From contig NZ_SGWV01000012.1 in the NCBI RefSeq assembly GCF_004216565.1, forward strand, positions 144,190 to 208,189: a stretch of DNA of 64,000 nucleotides, given 5' to 3'. Positions 3,121 through 32,104 of the stretch are shown piece after piece. The stretch is from Sphaerotilus mobilis (GTDB taxonomy: Bacteria; Pseudomonadota; Gammaproteobacteria; Burkholderiales; Burkholderiaceae_C). The position numbers were made by a program, and so were the translations under genes. Positions within the stretch are counted from its first letter, which is position 1. Each line of letters begins with the position of its first letter. Below the pieces are notes generated by a model. That model was given only the letters and a program-made list of their open reading frames with translations. It was not told the DNA's origin and made no database searches.

Positions 3121-3143
3121 TGGTGGAGCCGGGGGGAATTGAA
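3121..3143 (-). ncRNA. ssrA: Host tmRNA 3'-terminal fragment (split gene)
   Basis: On the minus strand this reads TTC, AATT, CCCCC, the acceptor strand CGGCTCC and the encoded ACCA. CGGCTCC pairs with GGGGCCG at the 5' end of the fragment ending at 32104 (one G-U pair), and CCCCC pairs with the GGGGG just before the break at 31765. It is therefore the missing T-loop, T-stem and acceptor end of the interrupted host tmRNA, displaced about 28.6 kb by insertion of the copper element. Confidence 0.9.
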
Positions 3144-3146
3144 GCT

Positions 3147-3158
3147 TTATCTCAGGAC
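3147..3158 (+). repeat. Left terminal inverted repeat
   Basis: TTATCTCAGGAC is identical, in inverted orientation, to the right end at 31753-31764. It is preceded by hexanucleotide GAAGCT, whose first three bases match the host T-loop. Confidence 0.85.
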
Positions 3159-3276
3159 TTTTGCTCCACTTCGCTCGATGTGAGTGACTGACTACGAGAG
3201 AAGTGCCAATGTGCACAAGTGTGCAGTCATATTCTCAAGCCATATCGGACGTGCACTTTGTGCTGTCCAGAAACAC

Positions 3277-3301
3277 TGAAGCCCGCACAAGGCGGGCTTC
3301 A
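3277..3301 (-). terminator. Terminator of the element tmRNA
   Basis: The arms TGAAGCCCGC (3277-3286) and GCGGGCTTCA (3292-3301) form a perfect 10-bp stem with loop ACAAG. It lies 16 bp past the 3' end of the tmRNA at 3317 and in its direction of transcription is followed by GTGTTTCT. Confidence 0.75.
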
Positions 3302-3316
3302 GATGAGGAAAGGGTA

Positions 3317-3688
3317 TGGAGGTGGCGGGGTTCGAACCCGCGTCCGCAAGCCTTTTCCGTCCAGTTCTACATGCGTAGCCGTCTGATTTGAGTCTCACCC
3401 TCCCAGTCGCGCAGTGGCACGCTACTGGGAGAGCCAGCACCCTTGAGTCTCGTCAGCGTCCAAGGTGCACGGGCGCTGACCAGCCAATGTGAATGACCTC
3501 TCTGTCTAACGTCTTGCGACTTCAGACGCGGCCCATTGGCCTACCGCTGAGAGGCTCACCGGTTTTAAGCGGCGAGGGCGTACGAGGTATCGTTCGCAGT
3601 TACTTTGTTTCCAGTGGTTTTACGAGCGAACTGGTGCTCGGCATGCCCTGATACGAATCCGTACCTACGTCGAAGCCAATTCACCCCC
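3317..3688 (-). ncRNA. ssrA: tmRNA (complete, element-borne)
   Basis: The one-piece tmRNA is 372 nt. The 5' end GGGGGTG pairs with CACCTCC at the 3' end (one G-U pair), followed by discriminator A; CCA is not encoded. The T-arm is GCGGG-TTCGAAC-CCCGC. The tag reading frame is 3597 to 3565, with resume codon GCG, encoding ANDTSYALAA and then TAA. About 100 nt around the tag are nearly identical to the interrupted host copy (two differences seen), while the pseudoknot region and the ends are clearly diverged. It is thus a homologue from a related genome, not a recent duplicate. tmRNA with SmpB rescues stalled ribosomes and tags their products for proteolysis. It appears fully functional and is the only intact tmRNA in the window. 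Confidence 0.96.
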
Positions 3689-3712
3689 ATAGATGTGCTT
3701 GACGAACAGGAC

Positions 3713-3718
3713 AGTATA
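3713..3718 (-). promoter_or_regulatory. Possible -10 element of the element tmRNA
   Basis: TATACT on the minus strand lies 24 nt upstream of the mature 5' end, compatible with a short leader removed by RNase P. No good -35 hexamer is seen at 17 bp, so the call is weak. Confidence 0.4.
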
Positions 3719-3877
3719 GCGCAAGTAGCGAGCATGAGAGCGCCGACGCCCGAAATCGGCCAAACGCACGCCCCACCTTAGGCCAGCTCACTGCATTGGC
3801 GGCTGGGGTGCCCCGCCAGCTTCTCCGGAAAGGCTGCGCATGAGGCGTTGGCCCCGCAGCGCAAAGCTGCGCGACGC

Positions 3878-4099
3878 TCAGAAGTTGCGATAGCGACTCA
3901 GCGGCAGCCCGTGCCGTTCGACGAATGCATTGGAGCTCTGCAGGGCCACCTGGTTGTCAGTGAGCCATTGCTCTTGTAGGCGTGTCCCCGCTGCCGCATG
4001 GCCTACCTGACCTGTTCGCGCGCCGGGGGCTCCCTCGTCACGGGCTTCGACCGGAATCGGGACAACAGCTTCGTTGCGAGGACGGTGAGCGGTGGGCAT
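3878..4099 (-). pseudogene. CcdA-like antitoxin remnant
   Basis: The last about 35 residues (LQEQWLTDNQVALQSSNAFV, then ERHGLPLSRYRNF) match the toxin-binding tail of CcdA-family antitoxins (W-x-x-x-N-x-x-A-x-x-x-x-N-x-x-V-E-x-x-G). The upstream part (from MPTAHRPRNEAVV) does not read like the family's ribbon-helix-helix domain and looks frameshifted. No ccdB-like toxin gene follows before the tmRNA. I infer a decayed, orphan antitoxin. A longer start at 4195 is possible but not supported. Confidence 0.4.
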
Positions 4100-4236
4100 G
4101 TTCGAGTCCATCAGAGCTGAGTTCAGTCTATGCCACGCACAGCTGCTTGGCCGAGGCGTTCGACTCCGTCCCACAAACCAGGGTTTGTGAGACACCTGAG
4201 TTGGGCAGCCAGGAACGAGCTTAGGCGGCTCGTTTT

Positions 4237-4302
4237 GTGTCTCGATTGCCTGTCTTGTTTTCTATGTCCCGTTTCTGTAGAGTTCAACGGGAATCGAGAC
4301 AC
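4237..4302. promoter_or_regulatory. Resolution-site-like inverted repeat before the resolvase
   Basis: Perfect inverted repeat GTGTCTCGATT (4237-4247) and AATCGAGACAC (4292-4302), with an inner pair CCCGTT (4268-4273) and AACGGG (4286-4291). It ends 8 bp before the resolvase start. This is the position and style of a res subsite that also acts as the operator of the resolvase gene. Confidence 0.6.
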
Positions 4303-4310
4303 TTCCTCAC

Positions 4311-4862
4311 ATGTCTATGCTCATTGGCTACGCCCGAGTCTCCACGGACGAACAGAACTTGGACCTCCAAACGGACGCACTGACGAAAGTCGGATGCGAG
4401 CGGCTGTTCAGCGACCAGGTCAGCGGCGCCGCCGCAGTGAAGACCGGCCTTGATGAGGCGCTGGCCTACCTTCGAGAAGGCGACACCTTGGTTGTCTGGA
4501 AGCTGGACCGGCTCGGGCGCACAGTGAAAGGGCTAGTAGAGCTGGTCGACTTGCTGAAGGGCCGCGGCATCCAGTTCCGCAGCCTGACAGATGGCATCGA
4601 CACCAGCACGCCCGCCGGCCGGTTCTTCTTCCACATGATGGCGGCCCTCGCTGAAATGGAGCGGGACTTGATTCGCGAGCGTACGACGGCCGGCTTGGCT
4701 GCGGCCCGAGCTCGCGGGCGCAAAGGTGGGCGCAAGTCGAAGTTGGATGAGGCAAAGCTCGACGCCGCCCGAAAGCTGCTCACGGCCGGCACGCCGGCCG
4801 TCGATGTCGCAAAGACCCTGGGTGTTGGGCGCGCCACGCTGTATCGGCGGTTGAGTGGATGA
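4311..4862 (+). CDS. Serine resolvase/invertase (Tn3-resolvase family)
   Basis: The protein has 183 aa, the normal length. The N-terminal catalytic domain opens MLIGYARVSTDEQ with the nucleophile serine in RVST. Further catalytic-domain signatures follow: KLDRLGRTVKGL, GIDTSTPAGRFFFHMMAALAEME and RDLIRERT. A C-terminal helix-turn-helix (VDVAKTLGVGRATLYRRL) binds the site. The inverted repeat just upstream is its likely res/operator. No Tn3-type transposase is present, so it is either a relic of a Tn3-family transposon captured by the element or a multimer-resolution function for a circular intermediate. ATG at 4317 is an alternative start. The protein looks intact. Confidence 0.9.
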   Translation: MSMLIGYARVSTDEQNLDLQTDALTKVGCERLFSDQVSGAAAVKTGLDEALAYLREGDTLVVWKLDRLGRTVKGLVELVDLLKGRGIQFRSLTDGIDTSTPAGRFFFHMMAALAEMERDLIRERTTAGLAAARARGRKGGRKSKLDEAKLDAARKLLTAGTPAVDVAKTLGVGRATLYRRLSG

Positions 4863-5143
4863 CTGTGCAGGGACAGCTACGGGGCACAGCCTGAGCTGCA
4901 GCTCAGCACTGGGGCGACGAGTCGCCTCGGGGGGCAAGTCGCTGAGTGCTATACTTTTGAGACCTTGCATCAGAGAGACCCGGAAAGGCGTCCCGGTGGC
5001 CAAGCCCGTGCACAGGGTTAGGCGCTGATGAGGAAAATGTGCATCCTTGCGAGGGCGACCTCGGACGAGGCGACCGACCAAGGTGTCGGAAGCTGGGTGC
5101 GCAGCCGCTCCTCCTCAGGTGCAAGGTTCTTTCTTTTACGACC
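4863..5143. other. Non-coding stretch after the resolvase
   Basis: No supported gene, terminator or repeat is seen. Short frames in this interval are shadows. Confidence 0.5.
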
Positions 5144-5839
5144 TCACTTCTTGAGCATGTCTGCTCGAAGTTTGGACACGCTGCCGGGCTTCGTCCAATA
5201 AGCCGTCACCAGTTTCAGGTGCACATACGGGGCCCCCGTATGCTGCAGGATTCCTGCTGGAGTCTCACCCATCGCGCTAGGTTCAAGGGCTTTGTAGGTG
5301 GCGTCGAACATCACAAGCTGGTTCTGGTACCCCTTGCCATGCTCTCCCTTGCTCGTATTTGGCGCGTAGTTCGGACTACCGTGCACGAACAGCTGGGTTA
5401 GCAGCTCGGTGACTGCAGGCTGACTTACCCCTTGGAGCGCCCGATGGTCTCGGCAGTGCTCGACGGCCGCTCTTGAAACGATGACGCAGCCAGTTCCCGC
5501 TGGAGACCGCGGCTCAAGCGCCGCAAGCTTTTTCGACGTCAACCAAAAGTTGATGAGGGCATTTGCCCGCTTGCTCAAAAACCACGAGAGTTCATCCTGG
5601 TCTGGGCCTAGGCACGGGGCAGCGCCTGTGACCCATTCGGTCAACATTTGGGCCATGGCTGCCTTAACTGCCGTCCCGGCCGCTGCAGCTACCCCCTGGA
5701 AGGCGGCCCCTTCTGTCGTCAGTCCCGCAGTCACAACAGTGCTGACGTACGACGCGGCCAGGTTGCCTTGTTGTGCTTGTGGCACCGTCAGGGCATTGGA
5801 TACCCCGTGGTTGGTGGTCATGCTGGTCGGTGAGGTCAA
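5144..5839 (-). CDS. Hypothetical protein, 231 aa
   Basis: I do not recognise this family. The protein is soluble-looking with no signal peptide or clear membrane span. The N-terminal part is rich in Ala/Thr/Val (AASYVSTVVTAGLTTEGAA). The middle and C-terminus have ordinary globular composition with several Trp and Tyr, a segment VIVSRAAVEHCRDHRAL and a basic end. Base composition is visibly lower in GC than the flanking chromosome, consistent with acquired DNA. It lies alone between the resolvase and the DUF433 gene. It could be accessory cargo or a truncated piece of a larger protein; no function can be assigned. Confidence 0.6.
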   Translation of the reverse strand: MTSPTSMTTNHGVSNALTVPQAQQGNLAASYVSTVVTAGLTTEGAAFQGVAAAAGTAVKAAMAQMLTEWVTGAAPCLGPDQDELSWFLSKRANALINFWLTSKKLAALEPRSPAGTGCVIVSRAAVEHCRDHRALQGVSQPAVTELLTQLFVHGSPNYAPNTSKGEHGKGYQNQLVMFDATYKALEPSAMGETPAGILQHTGAPYVHLKLVTAYWTKPGSVSKLRADMLKK

Positions 5840-6001
5840 TCTCCCAGCATTGTCGCTGCGCCATGTTGGAGCCAGTCTTCAAGCGCCAACGCTGAGTGCA
5901 CGGATGCGTTTCGGCCAGATTGGAATGACGAACAGTGGGCTAAGCTGAGGCCATAGCCTGCGAACCCGGCGGCCAATGTCGCCAGCAATCTTGGCCGCCG
6001 G

Positions 6002-6265
6002 TCACTTCCACCGACGCGCGGCGTTGAACGCACCAAGAGCCCACGGTCTCACGCGAATGTCATGCTCAGCCGCGTAGATGCGCGCCGCCTCGACATGTGC
6101 TTGCGTGAGCCAGGGCCAACTTTCTAGCAGCCGCTCCCAGGTCACCCCTGCGTCTACGCTCGCGAGCACGTTGGCAATCGGAAGGCGCGAACCTGCAAAT
6201 ACCGGCGTGCCGCCCATGACGTCCGCGTCGACCTCGACTTCAGGTGGATGTATGTCGAAGCTCAT
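6002..6265 (-). CDS. DUF433 domain protein (antitoxin-like)
   Basis: The protein has 87 aa from the ATG at 6265, chosen for the AGGGGA ribosome site just upstream. The sequence (VMGGTPVFAGSRLPIANVLA, then WERLLESWPWLT) is the DUF433 signature: a small helix-turn-helix-like protein usually paired with a DUF5615 PIN-type toxin as a VapBC-like pair. The toxin should follow immediately on the minus strand. Only a 66-codon frame (6036-5836) without a recognisable toxin motif is found there, so the toxin seems lost or decayed. Role as orphan antitoxin or regulator is inferred. Confidence 0.75.
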   Translation of the reverse strand: MSFDIHPPEVEVDADVMGGTPVFAGSRLPIANVLASVDAGVTWERLLESWPWLTQAHVEAARIYAAEHDIRVRPWALGAFNAARRWK

Positions 6266-6505
6266 GCTGCTTTCCCCTAACGATGTCTTCTGATGGACCG
6301 GTATGTGTCGAATCCAGCCACTCCGCGGTGCGACGTCATGCACAGACCATCGTCCCCACAGGTAATCAGCCGGTACGCGCACCGAGTACAGCGAACTGAC
6401 CGCACTCCGAAATGCGATTCAGCCCACCTTAACAAACGCCGTTGGGCTGTGGCAAAGCGCCGACCGGCTCGATGCTCGACCACAGCGTCCACGGCGCAAC
6501 TGCCG

Positions 6506-9500
6506 TCAGTTTGAATCGGCATGCAGGACGTGCACGGGTTGACTCTTCGCGACAAAACCGTGCCTCCTTCGATGCAGCAGATACCACGCCGCCGGCACCA
6601 CCAGCATCGACAGCAGAGGCGCGGTCACCATGCCACCGACCATCGGTGCGGCGATGCGCCCCATGATTTCCGAGCCGGTGCCGTGGCCCCACATCATCGG
6701 CACCAGGCCGGCCATCACGATGGCCACGGTCATGGCCTTGGGGCGCACGCGCAGCACGGCCCCCTCACGGATGGCGGCCAGCAGCGTCGCTTCGTTGTCC
6801 GGCTCGCCCGCAGCCAGGCGCTGTTTCAGCGCGTTCTCCAGGTAGACCAGCATCACCACGCCAAACTCGGCCGCCACGCCGGCCAGCGCGATGAAGCCCA
6901 CGGCCGTGGCCACCGAGATGGCGTGCCCCAGCAGCCAGACCAGCCAGAAGCCGCCGACCAGCGAGAACGGCACCGCCGCCATCACCAGCACCGCGTCCGC
7001 CGCGTTGCGGAACAGCAGGTAGAGCAGCACGAAGATGACGGCCAGCGTGGCAGGCACCACGACCTTCATGCGCTCGGTGGCTCGCTCCAGGTACTCGAAC
7101 TGCCCCGACCAGGAGATGGCGTAGCCCGCCGGCATGACGACCTCCTTCGCCACGGCCGCTTGCATGTCGTGCACCACCGAACGCAGGTCGCGGCCGCGCA
7201 CGTCGACATAGACCCAGCCGGACAGACGCGCATTTTCGCTGCGCAGCATCGGCGGGCCTTCTTCCAGCCGGACATGGGCGACATCCTGCAGCAGCAGTTG
7301 CGCGCCCTTTTCGGTCACGAAGGGCAGCGTGCGCAGGCGCTCCAGCGAGTCGCGTATCTCGCGCGGGTAGCGCAGGTTGATGGGGAAGCGCTCCCGGCCG
7401 CTCACCACCTCGCCGACGTTCTCACCGCCGATGGCGGTGGCGACGATGGCCTGTACGTCGGCGACCGACATGCCATAGCGTGCAGCGGCTGCACGGTCCA
7501 CGTCGATGTCGACGTAGCGCCCGCCGGTCAACCGTTCGGCCAATGCCGACGAGACGCCGGGCACGTTCTTCACCACGGATTCAATCTGCGTGGCCAGCTT
7601 GTCGATGGTGGCCAGGTCGGTGCCGGCGACCTTGATGCCCACCGGGCTCTTGATGCCGGTGGCCAGCATGTCGATGCGGTTGCGGATGGGTGGCACCCAG
7701 ATGTTGGACAGGCCCGGCACCTTGACCGCGCGGTCCAGCTCCTCGACCAGCTTGTCCGGCGTCATGCCCGCGCGCCATTGCTCGCGCGGCTTGAACTGGA
7801 TGGTGGTCTCGAACATCTCCAGCGGCGCCGGGTCGGTCGCGCTGTCGGCGCGGCCGGCCTTGCCGAAGACGCGTTCGACCTCGGGCACCGTCTTGATGAG
7901 CCTGTCGGTCTGCTGCAACAACTCGGTCGCCTTCGAGACCGACAGGCCCGGCAGGGCCGACGGCATGTAGAGCAGGTCACCTTCGTCCAGAGGCGGCATG
8001 AACTCGCCACCCAGCCGCATGACCGGGATGGCGGTCAGCGCTAACACCAGCCCCGCAATGAGCAGCGTGGCCTTCGGGAAGCGCAGCACGGCCTCCAACG
8101 CTGGGCGGTAGAGGCGCATCAGGAAGCGGTTCAGCGGGTTCGCGTTCTCGTGCGGAATCCGGCCCCGCACCAGCAGGCCCATCAGCACCGGCACCAGCGT
8201 CACGGACAGCGCTGCGGCCGCCGCCATCGTGTAGGTCTTGGTGAAGGCCAGCGGCGAGAACATCCGGCCCTCCTGCGCCTCCAGCGTGAACACCGGCAGG
8301 AAGGACAGCGTGATGACCAACAGCGAGAAGAACAGCGCCGGGCCGACTTCCACGGCAGAGTCGGTCACCAGCGCCCAGCGCTCCGGCGTGGTCGGCATCC
8401 GGCCGTGCTGGTGCTCGAAGGCCTCGATGTGCTTGTGGGCCGCTTCCAGCAGCACCACCACGCCGTCGAGTGCCGCGCCGCAGGCCAGCGCGATGCCGGC
8501 CAGGCTGAGGATGTTGGCGTTCAGTCCCTGCCAGTGCATGACCACGAAGGCGATGCCCACCGCGATAGGCAGCGAAATGACCGCCACCAGTGCAGAGCGC
8601 AGGTGGAACAGAAAGATGGCGCAGACCACCGTCACCGCGATGAACTCCTCGGTCAGCTTCAGCTTGAGGTTGTCGATGGAGCGGTCGATGAGCTTCGAGC
8701 GGTCATAGGTCTCGACCACCTCGACGCCCGGCGGCAGGCTGGGCTTGAGCTGTTCGAACTTGGCCTTGACCCCAGCGATGGCGGCTCGTGCGTTCTTGCC
8801 CGAGCGCATGACCACGACACCGCCGGTCACCTCGCCTTGCCCGTCCAGCTCGGCGATGCCGCGCCGCATCTCCGGCCCGAGCTGGACGATGGCGACATCG
8901 CGCAGCAGGACCGGCGTGGCGCCGGTGAGGGTGACCGGTATGCCGCGGAAGTCGTCGAGCGACTTCAGGAAGCCGCGCGAGCGCACCATGTACTCGGTCT
9001 CGGCCAGCTCGACCACCGAGCCACCGGACGACTGGTTTGCCTTCTGAAGCGCCTCCATCACCATGCCCTGCGTGACACCGACCTGGCGCATGCGGTCCGG
9101 GTCGAGCACGACCTGGTACTGACGCACCATGCCGCCGATGCTGGCGACCTCGGCCACGTCGGGCACCGTCTTCAGCTCGAACTTCAGGAACCAGTCGTTG
9201 AGTGCGCGCAGCTGGGCAATGTCGGTCTTGCCCGTCTTGTCGACCAGCGCATATTCGTAGACCCAGCCCACACCAGTCGCATCGGGCCCGAGTGCCGCGG
9301 TGGCGCCCGCCGGCAGGCGGCTCTGCACCTGGTTGAGGTACTCGACCACACGCGAGCGCGCCCAGTACGGGTCGGTCTTGTCGTCGAACAGGATGTAGAC
9401 GAAGGAGTCGCCGAAGAACGAGTAGCCCCGCACCACCTTGGCGCCCGGCACGCTGAGCATCGTCGTCGTCAGCGGATAGGTCACGAGGTCCTCGACCACC

Positions 9501-9676
9501 TGTGGCGGCTTGCCCGGGTAGCTGGTGCGCACGATGACCTGGGTGTCCGACACGTCCGGCAGGGCGTCCACCGGCGTGTTGGCCACCGAGAACAGCGCGG
9601 CGGCGACAAGAAAGGCCGTGGCGATGAGGACCAGGAAGCGGTTCGCGACCGACCAGCGGATGAGTGCGGCAATCAC
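6506..9676 (-). CDS. cusA: Heavy-metal RND efflux pump inner-membrane subunit (CusA/SilA)
   Basis: The protein has 1056 aa, full length for the HME-RND family. It opens with the first membrane helix ([20 protein letters not shown]) and the family signature [15 protein letters not shown]. It contains [13 protein letters not shown], the [14 protein letters not shown]-type membrane helix 4 region with acidic residues, a second half beginning near [11 protein letters not shown], and [20 protein letters not shown]. It transports Cu(I) or Ag(I) from periplasm and cytoplasm through the CusC channel using the proton gradient. The start overlaps the cusB stop by 4 bp (ATGA), so the two are translationally coupled. 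It is the last gene of the minus-strand copper operon. The metal is inferred from the CusF and CopA neighbours. Confidence 0.95.
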
Positions 9677-11208
9677 TTGGCGCCTCCCAGGCGGTGGACC
9701 GAGACCAGCTCGTAGTCGTCGCCCTTCTTCTTGAACTCGAAGTGCACCGAGTCACCGGGCTTCACGTCCGGGAAGGCCTTGGCGCTGGGCTTGTTGAAGC
9801 CCATGGTCATCGCAGGCCACTTGAGCTCGGCGATGGCACCGTGGGAGATGGTCAGGCTGTCGGCCTCGACGCTCTCGACCTTGCCTTGCGCCATGTAGCT
9901 CGCAGCGGCAGGGGCGGCAGCCTTCGATGCCGGCATTGAGGCCGGCGCGGACGCTTGCGTCGCTGCGGGTTCGGCCGCAGCCAGGCTGCCCAGCACAGAG
10001 CGCAGTCGCGCCTCGGAGTCGACGAGGAACTGGCCGCTGGCCACCACCTGGTCGCCCTCCGCCAATCCTTGAAGAACCTCCAGCTGGTCCCCGAGTTCAG
10101 CCCCCAGCTTGACCTCACGCGGCTCAAAGGCCCCGTTGTCCTTGCGCACGATGGCGACTGCACGCGTGCCGGTGCGGATGATGGCCTCGGACGGCACCAC
10201 CAGCCGCGATGCGGTCGGGCCGGCCACCTGCAGGCGCAGCAGCATGCCTGGGACCAGCTTGCCGCCCCGGTTGTCGACCTCGAAGCGGGCCTGCAGCGTG
10301 CGCGTCGTAGCGTTCACCTGGGGCAGGATTTCCTGCATCGTTCCCGTGAACGTCTGGCCGGGGTCGGCCTGCAGCGCTGCCGAGACCTTCTGTCCGCGCT
10401 TGAGTTGCACGGCTTGGGCCTCTGGCACTTCGGCCACAGCCCAGACCTTCTCCAGGCCGGCGATGCGGAACAGCGTCATGCCGGGCGACACGGCGACGCC
10501 CTCGCGCACCCCGAGTTCGGCGATGACGCCGCCGGCGGGTGCGACCAGGGTGTAGCGGGCGTTGGGCGTGCTGCCTTCCTCGGCCTGGCGGACCAGGTCG
10601 GCCGGGATGGACATCGCCCGCGTGCGCTCGCGCGCTGCCGCCACCAGCTCGCCCGATGCGCCCGAGCGCTTCAGCGCGATGAGCTCGTTCAGCGGCCCCA
10701 GCCATTCCGGTGCGAACACGGTGCCCAGCGCTTGTCCCTTGGCCACGCGCTCCATCGGCGCGCGTACAGCCAGGCGCTCCAGGTAGCCGGCGGTGCGCGT
10801 CTGCACCGCGACGTTCAGGCGCTCGTCGAACTGCACCGCGCCGACCGCGTCGAAGGATGCGCTGACATCGGCCCGCTTCACGACTGCGGTGCGGATGCCG
10901 AGGTTCTGCTGCACCTGCGAACTCACCTTGACGCCGGTGTCGCTGGCTTCATCGGCGTAGACGGGCTGCAGCTGCATGTCCATGAACGGCGACTTGCCCG
11001 GCTTGTCGAATCGGGCACCGGGGGTCATCGGGTCCTGCCAATACAGGACCTTGCGTTCACCGGCGGCGGATGCAGCCGCAGCAGGGGCCTGGCCCTGCGC
11101 ACCGACGCCATGCGAGGAGACGGCGCTGCTGCGGCCCAGATAGAAGGCGCCGCCGCCAATGACGAGAGCAGCAGCCAGGGCCACGACAGAAAGTTGGACG
11201 CGGCTCAT
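9673..11208 (-). CDS. cusB: RND periplasmic adaptor CusB with fused CusF-like domain
   Basis: The protein has 511 aa. An N-terminal membrane anchor/signal ([17 protein letters not shown]) is followed by [20 protein letters not shown] with the Met ligand region typical of CusB/SilB, then beta-barrel, lipoyl and hairpin domains. The last about 75 residues (from [20 protein letters not shown]) form a CusF-like copper-binding domain with WPAMTMGF, the usual W/M/M site. Fusions of this kind are known in CusB homologues. It links CusA to the outer-membrane factor and accepts metal from CusF. The gene overlaps cusC upstream and cusA downstream by 4 bp each. Confidence 0.94.
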
Positions 11209-23497: not shown

Positions 23498-25741
23498 TTA
23501 GCGCAGCAAGTCTGCAAGATGAAGGTCCAGTGAGACTTGGCGACTTTGGGCTCGCGGCAACCCTTCGACAGCCGCCTTCGCCGCCACCTCATCACCGACG
23601 AGCAGCACCTGCCGCTGCGCGCGCGTGACAGCCGTGTAGACCAATGTTCGGTCCAACAGGCGGTGGCCGGTCAGTGGCACGATGACGCGCGGCCATTGCG
23701 AGCCCTGGGCCTTGTGCACCGTGATGGCGTAGCCCAGTTCGAGGTCGTCGAGCATGTCCTGCACGATAGGCCGGCGCACGCCGTCGTCCCAATCGACCCA
23801 GGCCAGCGCCACGCTGGTCGCCTCGCCATCCTCGTTTGTCAGCATGCGCGGCTCATCGTCGACCTGGACGACGACGCCGAGCGAGCCGTTCTGTAAGCCA
23901 CGGTCCCAGAGGTTGCGCGTGCACAGCACCGGGTCGCCGAGGTGGAGTCCGACCCGGGCGAAGGCCTCATGCCGTTCGTCCCACACCTGAACGGCCTTGG
24001 CCTCGGCCGTGAGCGCCGACTGGCACAGGGCGTTGAGCCCCTTGGCGCCGTCGACGCCATTGCGCCGCGCGCAGAGCACCTGGGTGTTCACCGGGTCCTG
24101 CCTGTACAGGCGCAGGACCGTCTCGGGGAGGGAGGCTTCCGCTCCGGCCGAGGGGTGGACCCCGCAAGGTATGAACCCGATTGCCGCCTCTGGGTCGGGC
24201 GAAAGTGCTGGCCAGCGGCCCTCGCGAATGGAGGTCGCCGCGGCCGCGATGGCGCCGCCGTAGCGCTTGACCACCGTGAGCTGCGCCACGGGCACTTGCG
24301 GCACCGCTGTGAGCGCGTGGAGCACCAAGCCGGGCCCGACAGGCATCAGCTGCGCGGGGTCACCTACCAGCAACAGGCGTGGCGCAGGCCCGAGCACCTC
24401 GCACATCCGGCTCATCGTGATGATGTCGACCATGCTGGCCTCGTCGACGACGACCACGCTGCGTTCGTCGAAGGTACCCTCTGCTGCAGTGCGCAAAAAG
24501 CTTGCGATGGTCGAGGCGGGGCGGCCGGTGGCTTCCTGCATGCGCTTGGTCGCTCGACCTGCCAGGGCCAGTTGCGTGACGGAGATACCGGCACTGTCGT
24601 ACACGTCGTAGAGAGCCTTGAGCACGGTCGTCTTGCCGACGCCGGCGCCGCCCGTGATGAGGGCGAACGAACTGGCTGCCGCGAGGTGGACCGCTTCCCA
24701 CTGCTGGGGGTTCAGCTCGATGCCCTCAGCCTTCTCGTAGTGCAGCAGCAGCTCGTCGACATCGTCCGTGGGCAGGAGCGCCGGCCCCGTGGCCGTGAGG
24801 CGGTCGGCGACCGCCTGCGCGACCTGGCGCTCCATCACCATGGCACCCAGTGGCTGAACGCCGTGCAGGCCGACCACGAAGCTGCCGTTGGACAGGCCCT
24901 GCGACAGCGCGGTCGGGATGAGGCTGCGCCAACGGAAGGTCTTGGTCTGCGCGCCCAGGACGCCCTGAAGTACGTCCATCAGCTTGGACGAGAGCACCGA
25001 GGTGTGTCCAGCGGCGAAGACGCGGTAGCAGGCCTCCTCGATGGCGCCCTGAAGGCGGCGAGGGTCGTCCACGGCCACGCCGAAGTGCGTGCGAGCCAGG
25101 GCATCCGTCTGGCGCCACGTGGCGCAGAAGCTCAACAGTCGGTAGGGGTCTTCCTCGAGCTTCTCGGCCGTGTCGGAGCCGAAGAACTGCAGCACCTTCC
25201 GGCCGAGCGCCAAGTCAAAGCCCTGGGCCTGCAGCCACTGCAGTGTGCGGCTGTCGCCGTGCTGCGCCCAGGCCGCGACAACCTGCGCCGCGCTGTCTTG
25301 GGTGAGCACCTTCGCCAGCTCGGCAGCGTTTCGGGCATCCAGGTGGTTGTAGAGCGTCTCCCCGAACGCTTCCCAGAGCTTCCGCGCTTTGACCTGGCCG
25401 ATGCCCTCGAAAGCGGGGCTGTCAGCCATGAAGGCGATGATGTGCTCGCCCGACGGGCGCAGCAGAACGGCGCTGGAGGCGTCAATCTGCGTCTCGGCCA
25501 CCTGGTAGCCATTGACCTCCAGCAGGCGCTTAGAGGTCTCGCCAGCCACTTTCCACCATTGGCCAGGCTCGACTCGGGACCCACCCAGCGCTGCGCCCGA
25601 AGCCTTGACGACGAAGTAGCCGGTGGCGTCTTGCACCCGACCCTGGTCGTCGATGGGCTTGGCGGAGAAGATGCAGCCGCCGAAACCGCGCGGGTTCTGG
25701 CTGCGGATGGAGGCGACCCGAAGGTTCTGCTCGACGGTCAA
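23498..25741 (-). CDS. RecD-like DNA helicase of the mobility module
   Basis: The protein has 747 aa. The N-terminal part resembles the RecD2 OB/HhH region (GYFVVKAS, FEGIGQVKARKLWEAFGETL). The SF1 helicase core starts with Walker A GGAGVGKT at about residue 365, Walker B VVVDEASMVD, the GDPAQLMPVGPG motif and the C-terminal YAITVHKAQGSQWPRV and YTAVTRAQRQVLLVG motifs. 5'-3' helicase activity is expected from the family. It is the last gene of a five-gene operon and its start overlaps the preceding stop by 4 bp. I infer an accessory role in element replication, repair of intermediates or excision. It is convergent with copA. Confidence 0.88.
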   Translation of the reverse strand: MTVEQNLRVASIRSQNPRGFGGCIFSAKPIDDQGRVQDATGYFVVKASGAALGGSRVEPGQWWKVAGETSKRLLEVNGYQVAETQIDASSAVLLRPSGEHIIAFMADSPAFEGIGQVKARKLWEAFGETLYNHLDARNAAELAKVLTQDSAAQVVAAWAQHGDSRTLQWLQAQGFDLALGRKVLQFFGSDTAEKLEEDPYRLLSFCATWRQTDALARTHFGVAVDDPRRLQGAIEEACYRVFAAGHTSVLSSKLMDVLQGVLGAQTKTFRWRSLIPTALSQGLSNGSFVVGLHGVQPLGAMVMERQVAQAVADRLTATGPALLPTDDVDELLLHYEKAEGIELNPQQWEAVHLAAASSFALITGGAGVGKTTVLKALYDVYDSAGISVTQLALAGRATKRMQEATGRPASTIASFLRTAAEGTFDERSVVVVDEASMVDIITMSRMCEVLGPAPRLLLVGDPAQLMPVGPGLVLHALTAVPQVPVAQLTVVKRYGGAIAAAATSIREGRWPALSPDPEAAIGFIPCGVHPSAGAEASLPETVLRLYRQDPVNTQVLCARRNGVDGAKGLNALCQSALTAEAKAVQVWDERHEAFARVGLHLGDPVLCTRNLWDRGLQNGSLGVVVQVDDEPRMLTNEDGEATSVALAWVDWDDGVRRPIVQDMLDDLELGYAITVHKAQGSQWPRVIVPLTGHRLLDRTLVYTAVTRAQRQVLLVGDEVAAKAAVEGLPRAQSRQVSLDLHLADLLR

Positions 25742-26196
25742 CGCGGCAGCCTCCCCGTCAGGGACAGGGCGTCGCGTAGAACGGCGTACCTCTCTATCGT
25801 GCGCTTGAGCTCCGACACCTCGGCTTTGAGGCCGGCGTTCTCCTGCTCCAGGCGTCGGAGCCGTTCGGTCTCCTGGGCGGCACGAAGGCGGCCCGGCTCG
25901 CGCACCGTCGACGCTTGGGGGGCGTCAGGGTCGCGCTCAACGGCCGGAGGCAGGACGCCTCGCAGGCGCAGTGCGTCCTCCAACTCGCGAAGGGCGGCCT
26001 TGATGCGAGGATTCTGGTCGAGCGCCGACTTGGCGAAACCGCACTCCTTGGCGACCTCAACGCGAGACAACACGCCGCGGCTGGCCATCGCTCGGAAATC
26101 GTCGTCGGTCTTGCTCGCGACCCAAGTGGCAAACGTCCGGACGTTCTGCTCAGCCAATTGCTGCCCACTTGCCACTATTTCGTCCTCCTGTCGCAA
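25738..26196 (-). CDS. VPA1267-like accessory protein
   Basis: The protein has 152 aa. The N-terminal segment ASGQQLAEQNVRTFATWVAS, then KTDDDFRAM, SRVEVAKECGFAKSALDQNP and RIKAALRELEDALR looks like a small DNA-binding domain. I recall this pattern from the VPA1267 family, found next to gamma-mobile-trio genes. The C-terminal half is a coiled coil (ETERLRRLEQENAGLKAEVS). It is expressed from the recombinase operon between the 205-aa protein and the helicase. Function is unknown; a role as DNA-binding accessory factor is inferred. Confidence 0.7.
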   Translation of the reverse strand: MRQEDEIVASGQQLAEQNVRTFATWVASKTDDDFRAMASRGVLSRVEVAKECGFAKSALDQNPRIKAALRELEDALRLRGVLPPAVERDPDAPQASTVREPGRLRAAQETERLRRLEQENAGLKAEVSELKRTIERYAVLRDALSLTGRLPR

Positions 26197-26197
26197 C

Positions 26198-26815
26198 TCA
26201 TCGCTCCTGCTCCTTCAGCCGCCGCAGCGCGTCGAGGAAGGGGCGAAGTCGAGGGCCTGAGACAACAACCCGCCGGCCTGGCGCTGCCGCAAGGTCTCGA
26301 ATCTCTGCCTTGTCCATGTCCACTTCAAAAACATCGCCATCCATGTTGACGCGGTCAATCACCGCTCTGAGCGCCCAGACCGTATCTGCGTAGGCCACAT
26401 GTGCCTCAGACTCGGATAAGGCCGGTCCTCCGGCCCCAGGACGCACCACATTTCCAGCGTGTTCGCGTACTCGGGCGGCCAACTGCTCCTTCAAGGAACC
26501 AAGTTCCATTTGCGCGTCGACGAGTTTCGCCCGCAGCAGTTCAGGGGGGGCATCCTTGTCTGCAACAAAGGTAGACGCTCCGGACTGCCCCGCCAAGAAC
26601 TCCAGCAGCATTCGGTGATAGAGCGGGTTTCGAATCAAGGTCGTCCGGTGAATCTTGGTCCGCTCTGCCATGTCCGAGACGAGGGTGGCCTTGTCGGGGT
26701 ACGGCATCTTCCTTCGTCGAGCCTTTTCCAGTTCCGCGCGAAGCAACTCGACCGAGGTTCCCTGCTGGGCCGCCCGGAATGCCTTGAAGTTGTCGGTTCC
26801 CTTGGGTACGCCCAC
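26198..26815 (-). CDS. Recombinase accessory protein (GmtX/TnpC-like)
   Basis: The protein has 205 aa: basic N-terminal region (ARRRKMPYPDKATLVSDMAE) followed by RTKIHRTTLIRNPLYHRMLL, a helix-turn-helix-like pattern shared in style with TnpC of Tn554 and with the small third protein of gamma-mobile-trio loci. The middle is helical (RAKLVDAQMELGSLKEQLAA). Position directly after the large recombinase (1-bp gap) supports a shared function. TnpC of Tn554 is not essential but sets orientation and efficiency; whether that holds here is unknown. Confidence 0.65.
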   Translation of the reverse strand: MGVPKGTDNFKAFRAAQQGTSVELLRAELEKARRRKMPYPDKATLVSDMAERTKIHRTTLIRNPLYHRMLLEFLAGQSGASTFVADKDAPPELLRAKLVDAQMELGSLKEQLAARVREHAGNVVRPGAGGPALSESEAHVAYADTVWALRAVIDRVNMDGDVFEVDMDKAEIRDLAAAPGRRVVVSGPRLRPFLDALRRLKEQER

Positions 26816-26816
26816 C

Positions 26817-29800
26817 TCAAGCTCCTGCCAACAACGGGGTGGTGCTTGCGGAGGGCAATGCCACGATGCGCGGGAGCTCTTCCACCGCAGAGGCCACCTG
26901 CTCGAGCGTGAGGCCGTTCGCGTCGACGTAGGGCTTCATCAACGACGCGAAAACAGTCAGTTCACTGTGGGGAGGAACGTCCAGGAAGGCTGCTTCATCA
27001 AGCCGGCCTTGCTTGGCGAGAATCAACCTGGTGTATCGCAGAGCCTTGGCACGCACCTCTGGCGATTCAAGCGACGGGTACGCGTTCGAGTCGGCAATGC
27101 GCTGCAGGAAGAACTCGCTCTCAGAGCGGTTGCGGGTGACCAGCTCCAACTGCTTGCGCACCAGTTCCGGCTGGTCCACGTGGTAAGTCTTGTCACCTTC
27201 GCCGAATTCCCGCTGCGCAGACCGAAGAATTTCAGCTGACAGCTTCCACCCCAAGAGCTCCTTGGTGTCAAGACTCATCTCTCGGTGCAAGTTGTCGATG
27301 TCGGTCTGGTTGCACCCCTTGCGTTCAAGTAGTTGTTGCCTTGCAGCCGCTGTCCGGATGCGCTCATGCAGTTCAGCCTGCTTAGCTTCTATCCCTGGGA
27401 GGTGGTCTATGCATTTGGCGGCCAAGGGACAGATACCGCAGCGATTCATACCCCCAGTGTTCGCGATGACTTCCTTTGGGCACTGATTCCCTACAGGGCA
27501 AGCGTGAGTCGGATGCCAGCGAATGATGCTCGACGGGCTTTGTCTTAGGAGGTTGAGGGTCGAGGCATCTCCGTCCAGTTCAGACAGGGACCACAAGGCA
27601 ACCCCAGGTATGAACCTGAAGTCAGCTATGGCCTGCTCCCTGTTTCTCTCGAATGCCAACCGAACGGAGCTGTCCTTGCGCTCAGGGTGGAGGCGCGCTG
27701 AACTCTCGCCTGTGGGGTCGTAGGCCTCCCCTTCCATGGTTCGCGCGTCGATGGCCTTAAGTTTGGCCAGCAGCCGCTTGATTTGAGGAACTTGATACGT
27801 ATTGGTTACTATGGTATTCGAATGACCCAACTGTTCTGCAATCTCAGAGACCTCAAGGTCTCCGTCCTTCAGCGTCGCATAGGTCGCCCGACATGAGTGC
27901 GGTGTGTGAATGGCCCGGTAGACGTCGGAGATTGTTCCCCCTTCCACCCACTCGTCACGCTCTCGGAGCAAAATCAACGCATCGTCTGAATCAGAACGGT
28001 CCGTACCGTCCTTGCGGTTGTAGAACGCCTGGAATCCAAATAGGTACTCCACCCAGCGGTAGTCGTAGAGGCTGTCGGAGACAGGCTTAGCGGCACGGTC
28101 TGACCGAAACAAGGCGTTTACTGGCAAGAACCTGGAGTTCTCGCGGTCCTCGTAGGGCACCTCGACTGACCGGAACTTGTCGACCACCGATTCCTGAAAG
28201 TAGTACTCGGCGAGCAGTGACCTACGCACTCGCCACGAGACCAAGTTCTTCCATTCTTCATGGGTCTTGTCCGTGTTGATGTACAGCGCGTGGTAGTTCT
28301 GGTTGAGGGCATCGCCATGCAGGGAGGCCAGCGAGGCCAATCGCGGTGCCAGCTTGTCAAAGGTCCTGCGGTCCAGCCACTGCAGCGATTGAGCCCGCAA
28401 GCCGCTTTCCGCCATGGCCATCAGCAGCCGTGCAACGGTCAGATGCGGGAAATTCAACGTGACATTTCGGTTGGCTCCGACGTTGATTCGGCGCCCCTGC
28501 ACGTACAGGCCCTCCAGTCCGTCGGCGTTCGACTTCAGCGTCCGCTTCGATATAGTGAAGATGTTCGGTACCCAATCTAACTGGTACCGGCGCCTTTGGT
28601 ACCAGAAGACTGGAACGTAGCCCCATTCGGCAGTGTCGTACCCCGTTCGCGGACCGTTTGGCAGTTCGCGGAAGCGATTCCGTAGGTAGGCTTCCTGTTG
28701 GAGGAACTCACCAAAGGCCTCAACAGCCTGCCCGTAGTGAATCAGGAATGGGAAAACGTCCTCAGCGAACGGAACCTTGTCTGTCTTGCTCGCGCGCCCA
28801 GCAACTTCGTTGTCAAAGTCTGTGCGGAAAGGGTTCTGCATGCCCTTGGTGACGAACCTGCTATCGTCCTCGAAGTAGGTCTGTACGAAGCTGAAAAACT
28901 GCTGCATCGCCAAACGGGCGACATTGCGAGAACCCGGCGTGGGCCTTCGCAGGGGCAGCATTTCGTTGAGGGTGCGAGGAAGTGCGCCCAAGCCTTGGGC
29001 CTGCTCTGTGTGAAACCGAGTGCGGTCCACATAGAAGAATCTCAAAAATTTCTTGGGAGAAGATGGAAAGTCCAGCGTTGCTCCTGGGTGTCGGGACATC
29101 CACCAGGGCAAGTACAACAACACATAGTCTGCAAGCACAATCAAGGCGGACCGGACTTGCCCGTCAGTCTCATAGTCCTTCCTTCGATGGGCTAGGAACG
29201 CTCGAAAGGCTATGAACCAATTTGCACCTAGTTTGGCGATGTCTATCGACGGGCGCCCCGGATAGTTGATTGGATTGTCCAGCCAATCGTCCGGCCGAAA
29301 CCCTTTCACGCTCGACCCCCCGGTCAGGGCGGCGAAGTATTCATCTGAGGAAGAGACGTCATCTGTCGATGCGATTCGTCGAAGGTTTTCGACGAAAGGG
29401 CCGTCTGGGCGCTCGGCCCTCCTTTCGGCCTTTCGCTGGTTCTCGCGGGCATGCCGACGCTCAATGTGAGCCTTCAGTTCGATGCGCTCCCTTTCGTGCC
29501 CGTGCACGCGCATCCCGGCCAAGTTCTTCGGGTCAGACATGAACTGCTTGAAGTTCATGGTTTTGTCTGCTTCAGAGGCTCGCCAGATTAGGTACCCGTG
29601 CCGCAGGTCTCGACCGAGCGCATTCGCATCCGCGAACTCGATACACCGCAGAAGAAGGTAAGCCGGCGCCGCGGTAGAGAACTTCGAGTCGACTCCTTGC
29701 TCGAGTAGCCAGCTGTGCAGTTTCACGAATCCGTCTAGTTCAAATTCAGTGGCCTGCCGACAGGCAGTGGCCAGCATCAATTGAAGGTGACTGCGCTTGG

Positions 29801-30170
29801 CCAGCCAACGCGGAGCGATTTTCTGTACCCAGGCATCAACTTCCATGAGGAAGGGAGGTAGCGCGAAGACGCAGTTTGAGGGGGCGAGGAGAAACAACGA
29901 GGGGCCGGTGGCCGGCAGCATCACAAAGCCAGCCAAGGCAAGGTCCACCAAGGCCACCGCCGCTGGCGACCGCTCAGGGCCTGTTTTGCGCGTCAGGCCC
30001 ATTAGGTCGGCGAGCTGGACGTCAAGCATGACCTCGGAAGAGCCCTCCGGAACGGCTATGAACAGAGGAACCCCAGTGTGGGTGACAGCTCGGTGCATCG
30101 CGTCGCGCATTGCCTCCGAAAGCCCGGAGTACGTCAGCGCCACAGGGTGGGTCGAGAGATTCACGAGCAT
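26817..30170 (-). CDS. Large tyrosine recombinase (GmtZ/TnpB-like)
   Basis: The protein has 1117 aa, much longer than ordinary integrases. A long N-terminal region has no motif I can name, with a basic stretch HERERIELKAHIERRHAREN. The catalytic C-terminal half shows HSCRATYATL (H-x-x-R, about residue 757), IAEQLGHSNTIVTNTYQVPQ (His and nucleophile Tyr, about 780-790). After the catalytic domain a cysteine cluster (CPVGNQCPKE, NRCGICPLAAKC) suggests a zinc-binding module. It lies 6 bp after the first recombinase gene. Paired dissimilar tyrosine recombinases are typical of Tn554 (TnpA/TnpB) and gamma-mobile-trio (GmtY/GmtZ) elements. It is likely required for insertion at the tmRNA target. Confidence 0.85.
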   Translation of the reverse strand: MLVNLSTHPVALTYSGLSEAMRDAMHRAVTHTGVPLFIAVPEGSSEVMLDVQLADLMGLTRKTGPERSPAAVALVDLALAGFVMLPATGPSLFLLAPSNCVFALPPFLMEVDAWVQKIAPRWLAKRSHLQLMLATACRQATEFELDGFVKLHSWLLEQGVDSKFSTAAPAYLLLRCIEFADANALGRDLRHGYLIWRASEADKTMNFKQFMSDPKNLAGMRVHGHERERIELKAHIERRHARENQRKAERRAERPDGPFVENLRRIASTDDVSSSDEYFAALTGGSSVKGFRPDDWLDNPINYPGRPSIDIAKLGANWFIAFRAFLAHRRKDYETDGQVRSALIVLADYVLLYLPWWMSRHPGATLDFPSSPKKFLRFFYVDRTRFHTEQAQGLGALPRTLNEMLPLRRPTPGSRNVARLAMQQFFSFVQTYFEDDSRFVTKGMQNPFRTDFDNEVAGRASKTDKVPFAEDVFPFLIHYGQAVEAFGEFLQQEAYLRNRFRELPNGPRTGYDTAEWGYVPVFWYQRRRYQLDWVPNIFTISKRTLKSNADGLEGLYVQGRRINVGANRNVTLNFPHLTVARLLMAMAESGLRAQSLQWLDRRTFDKLAPRLASLASLHGDALNQNYHALYINTDKTHEEWKNLVSWRVRRSLLAEYYFQESVVDKFRSVEVPYEDRENSRFLPVNALFRSDRAAKPVSDSLYDYRWVEYLFGFQAFYNRKDGTDRSDSDDALILLRERDEWVEGGTISDVYRAIHTPHSCRATYATLKDGDLEVSEIAEQLGHSNTIVTNTYQVPQIKRLLAKLKAIDARTMEGEAYDPTGESSARLHPERKDSSVRLAFERNREQAIADFRFIPGVALWSLSELDGDASTLNLLRQSPSSIIRWHPTHACPVGNQCPKEVIANTGGMNRCGICPLAAKCIDHLPGIEAKQAELHERIRTAAARQQLLERKGCNQTDIDNLHREMSLDTKELLGWKLSAEILRSAQREFGEGDKTYHVDQPELVRKQLELVTRNRSESEFFLQRIADSNAYPSLESPEVRAKALRYTRLILAKQGRLDEAAFLDVPPHSELTVFASLMKPYVDANGLTLEQVASAVEELPRIVALPSASTTPLLAGA

Positions 30171-30175
30171 ATGTG

Positions 30176-31627
30176 TCAGCCGATGAGAGGTACAGCGGGC
30201 GGCGAAGGCAGCGCCAGGCCAGGGGGGAGAGCCTCCCCTTGGATAAAGTGCAGGTCATGTGCCTGCAACTTCGCCTGCAGGCGGCTGGTACGTTCTCGTG
30301 CGTATTTGCGCGTAGTGTTGACGTCCCTGTGCCCCATCAACTGCTGGACCTCCGCCAGCGTCAAGCCAGGCATCGTCTGGCCAGGTACCTCGTAGTCGTT
30401 CAACATGTAGACCCCATACGAGTGGCGAAGCGAGTGGGCTGTCCAGGTGTGTTCCCTGGCCACTGGTGGCCCGGGAATCTGCGCCCGCTTGACGGCCGAG
30501 GTGAAGGCAGAGTTCAGCGTCTCATCTGTGGCCTCGTGCAGCGGTCTACCGTAGTGCGGCTTGATGAGGTACTGGAAGACAAAGTCGTTGCCATCCTGGG
30601 GAAGTCGGTACTCCTCCTTGCGGTACCTGCTCAGGTACTCGAAGAACCAGGTCCGGTAGGGAAGGAAAAGGTACGTGCGAGAGACTGTTCGGCCCTTGAA
30701 GCGCTGGTCGCGTTCGGTTTGTGGCATTTCGCGCCCGTAGCGCAGCGAATCGGGGTCCAGGACGAACACCTCCCGCTTCGCGAAGTCGATGTCGCACCAT
30801 TGAAGGTTGAGCGCCTCCGAGCGGCGGATGCCGCTGGCGAGGAGCAGCGCCCAGAGGGCCCGGTCTCGCCAAGTCGTCGCGGCGGCAATCAAGGCCGGGA
30901 AGTGCTCGAGCGGGAAGTCCAACGAATCGACATCCATCTGGCGCTGCTGCCGGACGCTCTTGCGCAGTCCTCGAGGGCGGGTCAACTCGGTGCCGCGAAA
31001 CCGGATGACCCCGCCCAGCATGCTGGACTGCTTGAGGTGTAGGACCTCTTCCGGGCTAAACGCCGTCACGCCGTCGACTGCTTCCAACAATGGACGGTAG
31101 TCCCATGCTGCGTTCGCCACCAGCGTTGGGTCCATGCCGCCCCTGTTTAGTGCCATCTCCTTGGCCTCGTTCTCCAGCATCGCGCAGAGGCGGAGGAAGT
31201 GGTTCAGGGCGGCAATGGTGTTAGCCCAACTGCCGGCTGCCAGGGGTTCAATCTTCAGGCGTCGGGCAACGCTTCGCAGCGCTGCCTCACGGGCCTCGTC
31301 GCCCTCAGCGTAGCGGGCGCGCTCTCGCTTGCCAATCGTCAGGGAGACGTGCTCACCGCTTCGAAGCAGTTCCAAGTAGTAGTTGATTGCGTCGTTGACG
31401 ACAGAGCGACTGACTGGTGCTGCGCCAAGCACCTTGACCTCGTAGAGGTAGTCGATGAAGCGCGCGACGACCGTGGTGTACCGAAGCAACGTGGCGTACC
31501 GCAGTCCCTTCAGTCTGTGGCAGAACTCTGAAAAGACCGAGATGTACACGCCAGACGGGTCCGTCAGCCGCCAGCTCGGGCGACCGTACTCGTTGACTTC
31601 TTCCTTGCGAACGTGGACAAGCGCCAT
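30176..31627 (-). CDS. Tyrosine recombinase (GmtY/TnpA-like)
   Basis: The protein has 483 aa from ATG 31627, which has AGGAG eight bases upstream; a longer in-frame start at 31675 lacks one. The core-binding domain (YATLLRYTTVVARFIDYLYE) is followed by a catalytic domain with R in ASGIRRSEALNLQW (about 266), HSLRHSYG (about 398) and LMGHRDVNTTRKYARE with the nucleophile Tyr near 440. It is the first gene of the mobility operon, 126 bp from the right inverted repeat. It is presumably one of the two recombinases that cut the element ends and the tmRNA T-loop. Confidence 0.92.
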   Translation of the reverse strand: MALVHVRKEEVNEYGRPSWRLTDPSGVYISVFSEFCHRLKGLRYATLLRYTTVVARFIDYLYEVKVLGAAPVSRSVVNDAINYYLELLRSGEHVSLTIGKRERARYAEGDEAREAALRSVARRLKIEPLAAGSWANTIAALNHFLRLCAMLENEAKEMALNRGGMDPTLVANAAWDYRPLLEAVDGVTAFSPEEVLHLKQSSMLGGVIRFRGTELTRPRGLRKSVRQQRQMDVDSLDFPLEHFPALIAAATTWRDRALWALLLASGIRRSEALNLQWCDIDFAKREVFVLDPDSLRYGREMPQTERDQRFKGRTVSRTYLFLPYRTWFFEYLSRYRKEEYRLPQDGNDFVFQYLIKPHYGRPLHEATDETLNSAFTSAVKRAQIPGPPVAREHTWTAHSLRHSYGVYMLNDYEVPGQTMPGLTLAEVQQLMGHRDVNTTRKYARERTSRLQAKLQAHDLHFIQGEALPPGLALPSPPAVPLIG

Positions 31628-31678
31628 AAATACACTCCTGCGTGCATTCTTATTCAGCAGGATAAAGGCGCACAAGCG

Positions 31679-31704
31679 AAAAGCGCCACAAAAGTGGCGC
31701 TTTT
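31679..31704. terminator. Bidirectional terminator-like hairpin near the right end
   Basis: The arms AAAAGCGCCAC (31679-31689) and GTGGCGCTTTT (31694-31704) form an 11-bp stem with loop AAAA and flanking A/T runs on both sides. It lies between the recombinase start codon and the element end, where it could insulate the element from transcription of the truncated host tmRNA. Confidence 0.7.
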
Positions 31705-31752
31705 AGAGGTATTCAGAGGAGTGGAGGGGGGCTTAAAGCCGCTCGGAATCGG

Positions 31753-31764
31753 GTCCTGAGATAA
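31753..31764 (-). repeat. Right terminal inverted repeat
   Basis: GTCCTGAGATAA on the plus strand is the exact inverse of TTATCTCAGGAC at 3147-3158. It is followed directly by GAACCC, the host T-loop/T-stem sequence. Confidence 0.85.
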
Positions 31765-32104
31765 GAACCCCCGTCCGCAAGCCATCCTCAGGCAGTTCTA
31801 CATGCGTAGCTCTCTGATTTGAGTCTCGCAGCGTCAACGGGCAGGAGCACCCTTCGATCGCCGCCAGTCACGTAGTCTCGTTCTGGGTCGTGTGACCCGG
31901 CTCAGAACCAGCCGATGTGCATGACCTTGCCGTTGTTTCCAACACAGACCATCGGCGATCTGCTGCAAGGCTCACCGGTGTTAAGCGGCGAGGGCGTACG
32001 AGGTATCGTTCGCAGTTACTTTGTTTCCAGTGGATTTACGAGCGAACTGGTGCTCGGCATGCCCTGCTCCGATTCCGCACCCACGTCGAAACCAGGTCGG
32101 CCCC
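31765..32104 (-). ncRNA. ssrA: Host tmRNA 5' part, interrupted in the T-loop
   Basis: 340 nt from the 5' end GGGGCCGACC (32104) through the tRNA-like D region, pseudoknots and tag frame to GGGGGTTC, where the element begins. The tag (32019-31983 region) encodes ANDTSYALAA and then TAA, as in the element copy. The T-arm and acceptor strand are missing here and lie at 3121-3143. The transcript from this copy cannot be aminoacylated by alanyl-tRNA synthetase because it lacks the acceptor pair, so it should be inactive. The gene begins 15 bp after the gph stop codon, and a TAAACT -10-like hexamer overlaps the gph stop (32121-32116). Confidence 0.93.

Follow-up and report, generated by a model that had tools for sequence, protein, structure and literature searches.

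An integrative element in Sphaerotilus mobilis splits the host tmRNA gene in its T-loop and carries a complete replacement

The locus described here raises the question of what becomes of a transfer-messenger RNA (tmRNA) gene when an element integrates into it without rebuilding it. It lies in a 64,000-nt stretch of the Sphaerotilus mobilis contig NZ_SGWV01000012.1 (positions 144,190-208,189), hereafter the window, to whose full length all coordinates refer. In this window, the host tmRNA gene (ssrA) is split in its T-loop by an integrated element on which a second, complete tmRNA gene lies (Table 1), and the same arrangement, with a common attachment site (att) design, recurs in other genomes. 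An earlier note on this DNA had read the locus as one host tmRNA gene in two pieces, broken and not rebuilt by the incoming DNA, with a complete tmRNA of the same tag on the element between them. Our analysis upholds this account and extends it to the att arms, the recombinase module, the recurrence, the apparently mosaic replacement and the use of tRNA-Gly genes in relatives.

The split gene and its replacement

Rfam reports two tmRNAs in the window, at 3314-3688(-) with 188.7 bits and at 31719-32104(-) with 144.2 bits, the second match being without a real 3′ end. The sole tmRNA called there by ARAGORN is 3317-3688, with the tag ANDTSYALAA. The left part of the host gene alone yields no gene; when the two flanks are joined, ARAGORN calls a tmRNA, again with the tag ANDTSYALAA (each joined tmRNA in this study also receives an additional, alternative permuted call). 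The two pieces make up one gene, and the host 5′ part groups with a same-genus tmRNA at a support of 100/99 in the full tree. Along the minus strand, the host 5′ part is followed by TTATCTCAGGA, the rest of the element, TCCTGAGATAA, AGCTTC and then AATTCCCCCCGGCTCCACCA. The cut in the host gene lies at GGGTTC^AATT, and the left junction reads GGGTTC^TTAT. TTC at 3141-3143 is common to both junctions, and the 3143 limit given earlier and our 3140 limit are the same reading.

The tmRNA survey covered 60 genomes, including that of S. mobilis itself, with a tmRNA match at E 1e-20 in 54 and none in six. All 12 same-genus genomes (12/12) keep one uninterrupted tmRNA gene, next to which the window's gph-type phosphatase gene finds a match; therefore, the split is a derived insertion and is not shared by these relatives. 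A whole-genome search with RF00023 returned 15 matches, two of them above the cut-off and both in the window, and found no further tmRNA above the Rfam cut-off elsewhere in the genome. The split of the tmRNA and its replacement by a whole gene are confirmed.

The two ends of the window element form an exact 11-bp inverted pair (TTATCTCAGGA). Taken together, they make up a near-palindromic attP, in which the inverted arms TCCTGAGATAA and TTATCTCAGGA surround a 6-bp core, and arms and core look like the core site of a tyrosine recombinase. In tmRNA, the core GGGTTC forms the 5′ side of the T-stem and T-loop as well. Beyond these 6 bp, the arms of attP have nothing in common with the gene; for this reason neither junction rebuilds it, and only the joined flanks restore it. 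An ordinary island with a restored gene end was rejected on the same ground. In none of the five fully bounded elements described below (0 of 5) does an element fragment restore the target, which is the mark of an ordinary island in a tRNA or tmRNA gene (tDNA). The replacement tmRNA has a normal score, 188.7 bits against the RF00023 cut-off of 47, and it keeps the G3-U70 pair, which has a role in alanine charging. A TATACT box was seen by eye upstream of it.

Recombinase module and recurrence in other genomes

Near the left end of the element, genes for Int, Z, X, a VPA1267-family protein and a RecD2-like helicase are clustered. R592, H758xxR761, H783 and Y792 are invariant in an alignment of three Z proteins, and R, HxxR, H and Y form the motif expected of a tyrosine recombinase; in an alignment of five rows, which includes two distant sequences (one partial), invariance is limited to the HxxR pair and the final tyrosine. 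The module resembles gamma-mobile-trio (GMT) systems in having two recombinase-type proteins, weak similarity to GmtY and GmtZ and a VPA1267-family neighbor. GmtY scores of 27.1 (window), 25.9 (Paracidovorax konjaci) and 41.6 bits (Methylophilus) stay below the NCBIfam cut-off of 340. Against the GmtZ cut-off of 600, there was no match at E 0.01 for the window, 15.4 bits for P. konjaci and 24 bits for Methylophilus. NCBIfam also includes a GmtX model, to which X of the window, P. konjaci and Methylophilus gave no match. The module thus appears, from its protein sequences, to consist of two tyrosine recombinases and a small protein that are distantly GMT-like and far below the GMT cut-offs. GMT elements are multi-recombinase islands (Mahata et al. 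2024, as cited in PMC12715929).

Scanning genome contigs with an Int alignment reduced 127 pattern matches to four loci, in Acidovorax sp. MR-S7 (80% identity), P. konjaci (73%), Methylophilus sp. 13 (48%) and an Ignavibacteriales metagenome-assembled genome (L056, 26%). The last match, L056:10001-10837, lies 277 bp before a tRNA-Arg(acg). MR-S7, P. konjaci and Methylophilus each have a split host tmRNA and a complete element tmRNA whose tag equals that of the split gene. The element is 6.7 kb long in MR-S7, with part of Z deleted, and 77.4 kb long in Methylophilus. That of P. konjaci spans at least 8.7 kb from its left end to its tmRNA, an interval filled by matches to Int, Z, X, VPA1267 and RecD2, and its right end was not found by a motif search over about 24 kb beyond its tmRNA.

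Searches for Z matched 2 of 299 relatives (S. mobilis itself and G171, on a contig matching that of MR-S7), 1 of 369 genomes of the class (S. mobilis only) and, with a three-row Z profile, 4 of 399 genomes of the order (S. mobilis, G902, G876 and G767). With so few matches in these partly overlapping genome sets, the element type is rare. Z had no match on plasmids or in viral contigs, nor on phages, where G902 Z was the only query; the left-junction pattern had no match in viral contigs, and Int matched five plasmid records, all partial and below 60% identity.

In total, seven genomes hold Z, and the left and the right junction were each located in six. All six located left junctions show the T-loop split GGGTTC^TTAT, and each of these elements has a whole gene on board with the tag or anticodon of the split one; four of the splits are in tmRNA (window, MR-S7, P. 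konjaci and Methylophilus sp. 13) and two in tRNA-Gly(CCC). For the five elements with both ends located, ARAGORN leaves the left part without a call and reports a tmRNA or tRNA-Gly(CCC) across the joined flanks and another within the element. By tblastn, Int, Z and X occur together in five of the seven loci (window, MR-S7, P. konjaci, Methylophilus and G902); in G876, Z, X and a RecD2 homolog are on one contig and Int on another, and in G767 Int and Z are present and X is unmatched. The right-junction core is GGGTTC in MR-S7, Methylophilus and G902, AGCTTC in the window and AGGTTC in G876. The inverted arms are 11-14 bp long in the tmRNA-type elements, with a 6-bp spacer, and those of Methylophilus differ (AAGTGTTTAGATAA and TTATCTAAACACTT) yet enclose the same core GGGTTC. 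Since split and replacement recur with homologous recombinases in other genomes, the arrangement in the window is not a one-off rearrangement.

In G902 and G876, two genomes of one genus, the element interrupts tRNA-Gly(CCC) at the corresponding position, GTGGGTTC^TTATTACAGG, and has a whole tRNA-Gly(CCC) 54-56 bp inside its left end. G902 Z shares 24-26% identity with the three tmRNA-type Z proteins and 77% with the G876 piece. In G902, a Gly(CCC) anticodon stem with at most one mismatch occurs only in the split gene and the element gene, and the element tRNA-Gly is clearly different from the split one. The idea that a changed T-loop makes the replacement immune is appealing for tmRNA, where this T-loop occurs in 0 of 54 others, but it is not general, since the G902 element tRNA-Gly keeps GGGTTCGATTCCC. 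In G876 (L112:1739-4931), distant X and RecD2 relatives also follow Z, with an extra open reading frame between them, so the recombinase module may be old. On contig 37 of G767 (L113, L114), distant Int and Z homologs accompany a right end, CTACATAA GGGTTC AACTCCCGGGGGCCACCA; tRNA-His as the target there is unsupported, as two intact tRNA-His genes lie elsewhere.

Table 1. Features of the S. mobilis locus, in window coordinates
Feature	Position	Strand	Remark
Integrated element, 28,624 bp	3141..31764	(-)	
6-bp core GGGTTC, left junction	31765..31770	(-)	
Left att arm TTATCTCAGGA	31754..31764	(-)	
Right att arm TCCTGAGATAA	3147..3157	(-)	exact reverse complement of left arm
6-bp core AGCTTC, right junction	3141..3146	(-)	
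Host ssrA (tmRNA), 5′ part	31765..32104	(-)	ends GGGGGTTC in the T-loop
Host ssrA, 3′ part AATTCCCCCCGGCTCCACCA	3121..3140	(-)	missing 3′ end of the host gene
Complete replacement tmRNA	3317..3688	(-)	tag ANDTSYALAA; T-loop TTCGAAC; no encoded CCA
Terminator-like hairpin after replacement tmRNA	3276..3302	(-)	1 found, 1.0 expected by shuffling
Int, tyrosine recombinase, 483 aa	30176..31627	(-)	PF00589
Z, large tyrosine-recombinase-like protein, 1117 aa	26817..30170	(-)	conserved residues
X, small third protein, 205 aa	26198..26815	(-)	conserved neighbor in related loci
VPA1267-family protein, 152 aa	25738..26196	(-)	NF040697, 191.1 bits against a cut-off of 90
RecD2-like helicase, 747 aa	23498..25741	(-)	
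Copper-handling cargo: RND pump, multicopper oxidase, P-type ATPase, others	6506..23472	(.)	by eye from translations

A probably chimeric replacement RNA

Trees were built from 59 rows, that is, 62 minus the three long-branch rows L036, L097 and L098. The tRNA-like part (101 bases) places the three Burkholderiaceae-type element tmRNAs, all of which lack an encoded CCA, in one clade against 56 rows (100/99), and the body (254 bases) rejects this clade (log-likelihood difference 84, p-AU 0.00174), values to be read with the few columns available for the ends, a body bootstrap that is not settled and a group picked after the first full tree. Over the 86 nt surrounding the tag, the window copy agrees with its host at 85 positions, and with L087 to the same extent, as against 62 of 86 with the MR-S7 and P. 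konjaci element copies. Its 38 nt at the 5′ end and 55 nt at the 3′ end come closest to other elements; in the pseudoknot part the best match is L089, and its own host stands at rank 36. The MR-S7 copy is far from its own host and groups with L019, from another genus, at 100/100 in the full tree; L019 is its nearest relative in the pseudoknots (91%) and in the tag region (95%), where the P. konjaci element is tied. In Methylophilus, the element and host copies are sisters (100/99), and the ends of the element copy fall outside the clade of the other elements.

The sequence pattern of the three Burkholderiaceae-type replacements fits best a chimera formed by recombination with the tmRNAs of successive hosts. 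As the element passed through these hosts, its tmRNA would have kept element-type tRNA-like ends and adopted host-type bodies. The same mosaic could arise without recombination if host tmRNAs had been captured separately and selection had made their ends alike, as the placement of the Methylophilus copy beside its own host and of its ends outside the common clade might suggest. We regard this as unlikely, because the ends of the three elements form a 100/99 clade against 56 rows and element-type T-loops occur in none of the 54 other tmRNAs.

Mechanism, alternatives and precedents

We consider it very probable that this is a site-specific integrative element whose core is exchanged by Int and Z with their partner X, that its replacement tmRNA is functional and that the cell depends on it. 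From the anatomy of the locus, we infer that Int and Z, aided by the small X, perform the exchange at the 6-bp GGGTTC core. Because sharing the core alone with the target leaves the gene unrestored, a whole gene is carried along instead. The element tmRNA would then be transcribed, charged with alanine and perform trans-translation for the cell, which would for that reason come to depend on the element. Some bacteria can do without tmRNA. Nonetheless, the mutual dependence of host and element proposed in the earlier note is the natural reading of the sequence, and a cell may be unable to lose such an island without losing its tmRNA or tRNA.

Several observations weigh against this explanation. 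The right core of the window element is AGCTTC and not GGGTTC, and the arms of G902 and G876 are partial inverted repeats only. These two genomes, being of the same genus, may represent a single event, and the two element ends of G876 sit on different contigs. G767 shows only a right end with a tDNA-like remnant. Z has no Pfam match, and its AlphaFold model, with a mean pLDDT of 32.4, was not used. An automatic promoter scan gave no promoter at the replacement tmRNA.

Part of this evidence could also be accommodated by a variant of the same explanation, in which the element moves by a chemistry like that of the elements called SEs and leaves the target permanently unrestored. In SEs, imperfect inverted repeats of 13-19 bp and a 6-bp spacer go together with two tyrosine recombinases, and the spacer brought in by the element remains at attR (PMC10214605). 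The right core differs from the left in the window (AGCTTC) and in G876 (AGGTTC), and a whole-gene cargo is sensible if the target is never restored. However, point mutation would also account for these two core differences, and we hold this variant to be a real possibility without favoring it. An ordinary transposon with terminal inverted repeats is not favored, given the tyrosine recombinases at the left end and the arms that flank a target-matching 6-bp core; a further point is that the serine resolvase at 4311-4862, within the element near its right end, has no match in L053-L056.

Two unrelated events, namely a second tmRNA from an earlier island or duplication and a later transposon in the redundant copy, are hard to maintain. 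Islands do use the locus: a P4-type integrase (1660-2949) lies directly past the host tmRNA 3′ end and has an MR-S7 homolog of 50% identity in the same place, so that an ordinary ssrA island seems to adjoin the element. Nevertheless, the same arrangement with homologous recombinases in 4/4 tmRNA and two tRNA-Gly cases, and the position of the replacement between the element's ends (in P. konjaci judged by the left end only), make such a coincidence very improbable. It is scarcely credible, too, that the split host gene works as a two-piece RNA with the element copy as a spare. Two-piece tmRNAs exist, but they come from permuted genes whose pieces derive from one transcript (PMC11915505); here 28.6 kb separates the pieces, and the 3′ one is only 20 nt long. 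Group I introns also split tmRNA genes in the T-loop, but they splice out (PMC11915505).

The preferred reading, site-specific integration with outright replacement of the gene, has a precedent in the tRNA-dependent lysogeny of Guerrero-Bustamante and Hatfull (2024, PMC10865867), and the principle is therefore not wholly new. There, too, a tyrosine integrase acts at a short core (about 10 bp), the target tRNA is not rebuilt and a gene of the same isotype is supplied; the cited literature also points to the Lactobacillus prophage Lj965. A short core, here of 6 bp, and an unrestored target are seen in the present elements as well, and a gene of matching tag or anticodon is on board in 6/6 of those with a located left junction. 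That system concerns temperate phages, tRNAs and lambda-like integrases, and the available part of the paper mentions tmRNA solely as an ordinary attB site, whereas the islands described here have several recombinases, inverted arms, a 6-bp core, a fixed T-loop position and both tmRNA and tRNA targets. Several cooperating tyrosine recombinases at one end are shared with SE, GInt and Tn554-type elements (PMC10214605, PMC5385486), and inverted repeats with a 6-bp spacer with SEs (PMC10214605). By description, SE and GInt are set apart by their gene sets, intA-tfp-intB-srap and ginABCD, and neither text uses the word tRNA, nor that on GInt the word tmRNA (PMC10214605, PMC5385486).

Ordinary ssrA islands likewise insert by a tyrosine integrase at ssrA; unlike the present elements, they carry the gene end, restore the gene and leave a direct repeat (PMC4383910, PMC3146451, PMC12595487). 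Phages with their own ssrA have been listed, and second ssrA alleles and fragments from island integration mentioned (PMC4131195), so single cases of the present kind may sit unnamed in databases. One partial tmRNA in our set (L051:2761-3112 in G035, 63.8 bits) runs from the tag onward to an intact 3′ end, but its 5′ part is foreign. An intact tmRNA with a different tag (L052:8797-9171) is found about 66 kb away, and the partial copy may be a long, displaced fragment that stems from an ordinary island; there is also a group II intron match, at L052:11201-11494. Among the matches listed from the open-access literature, outside which most subscription papers fall, there was no report of a tmRNA replaced in this way, of an apparently non-phage carrier or of a chimeric RNA of this type.

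With these findings, dependence through gene replacement, described for phage tRNAs, would reach tmRNA and a class of multi-recombinase islands as well; they also show a way in which an island can use a tDNA without restoring its target. Finders that seek one restored tDNA and a fragment, such as Islander (PMC4383910), may mis-map such elements. On balance, we lean towards a broader view, in which non-phage islands with a trio of recombinase-module proteins replace the tRNA or tmRNA gene outright at its T-loop, translation or ribosome rescue would serve as the addiction module, and the tmRNA body would be swapped with successive hosts and so record earlier ones. The islands thereby offer a natural experiment on tmRNA, setting the parts that are swappable between species against those that are kept together.

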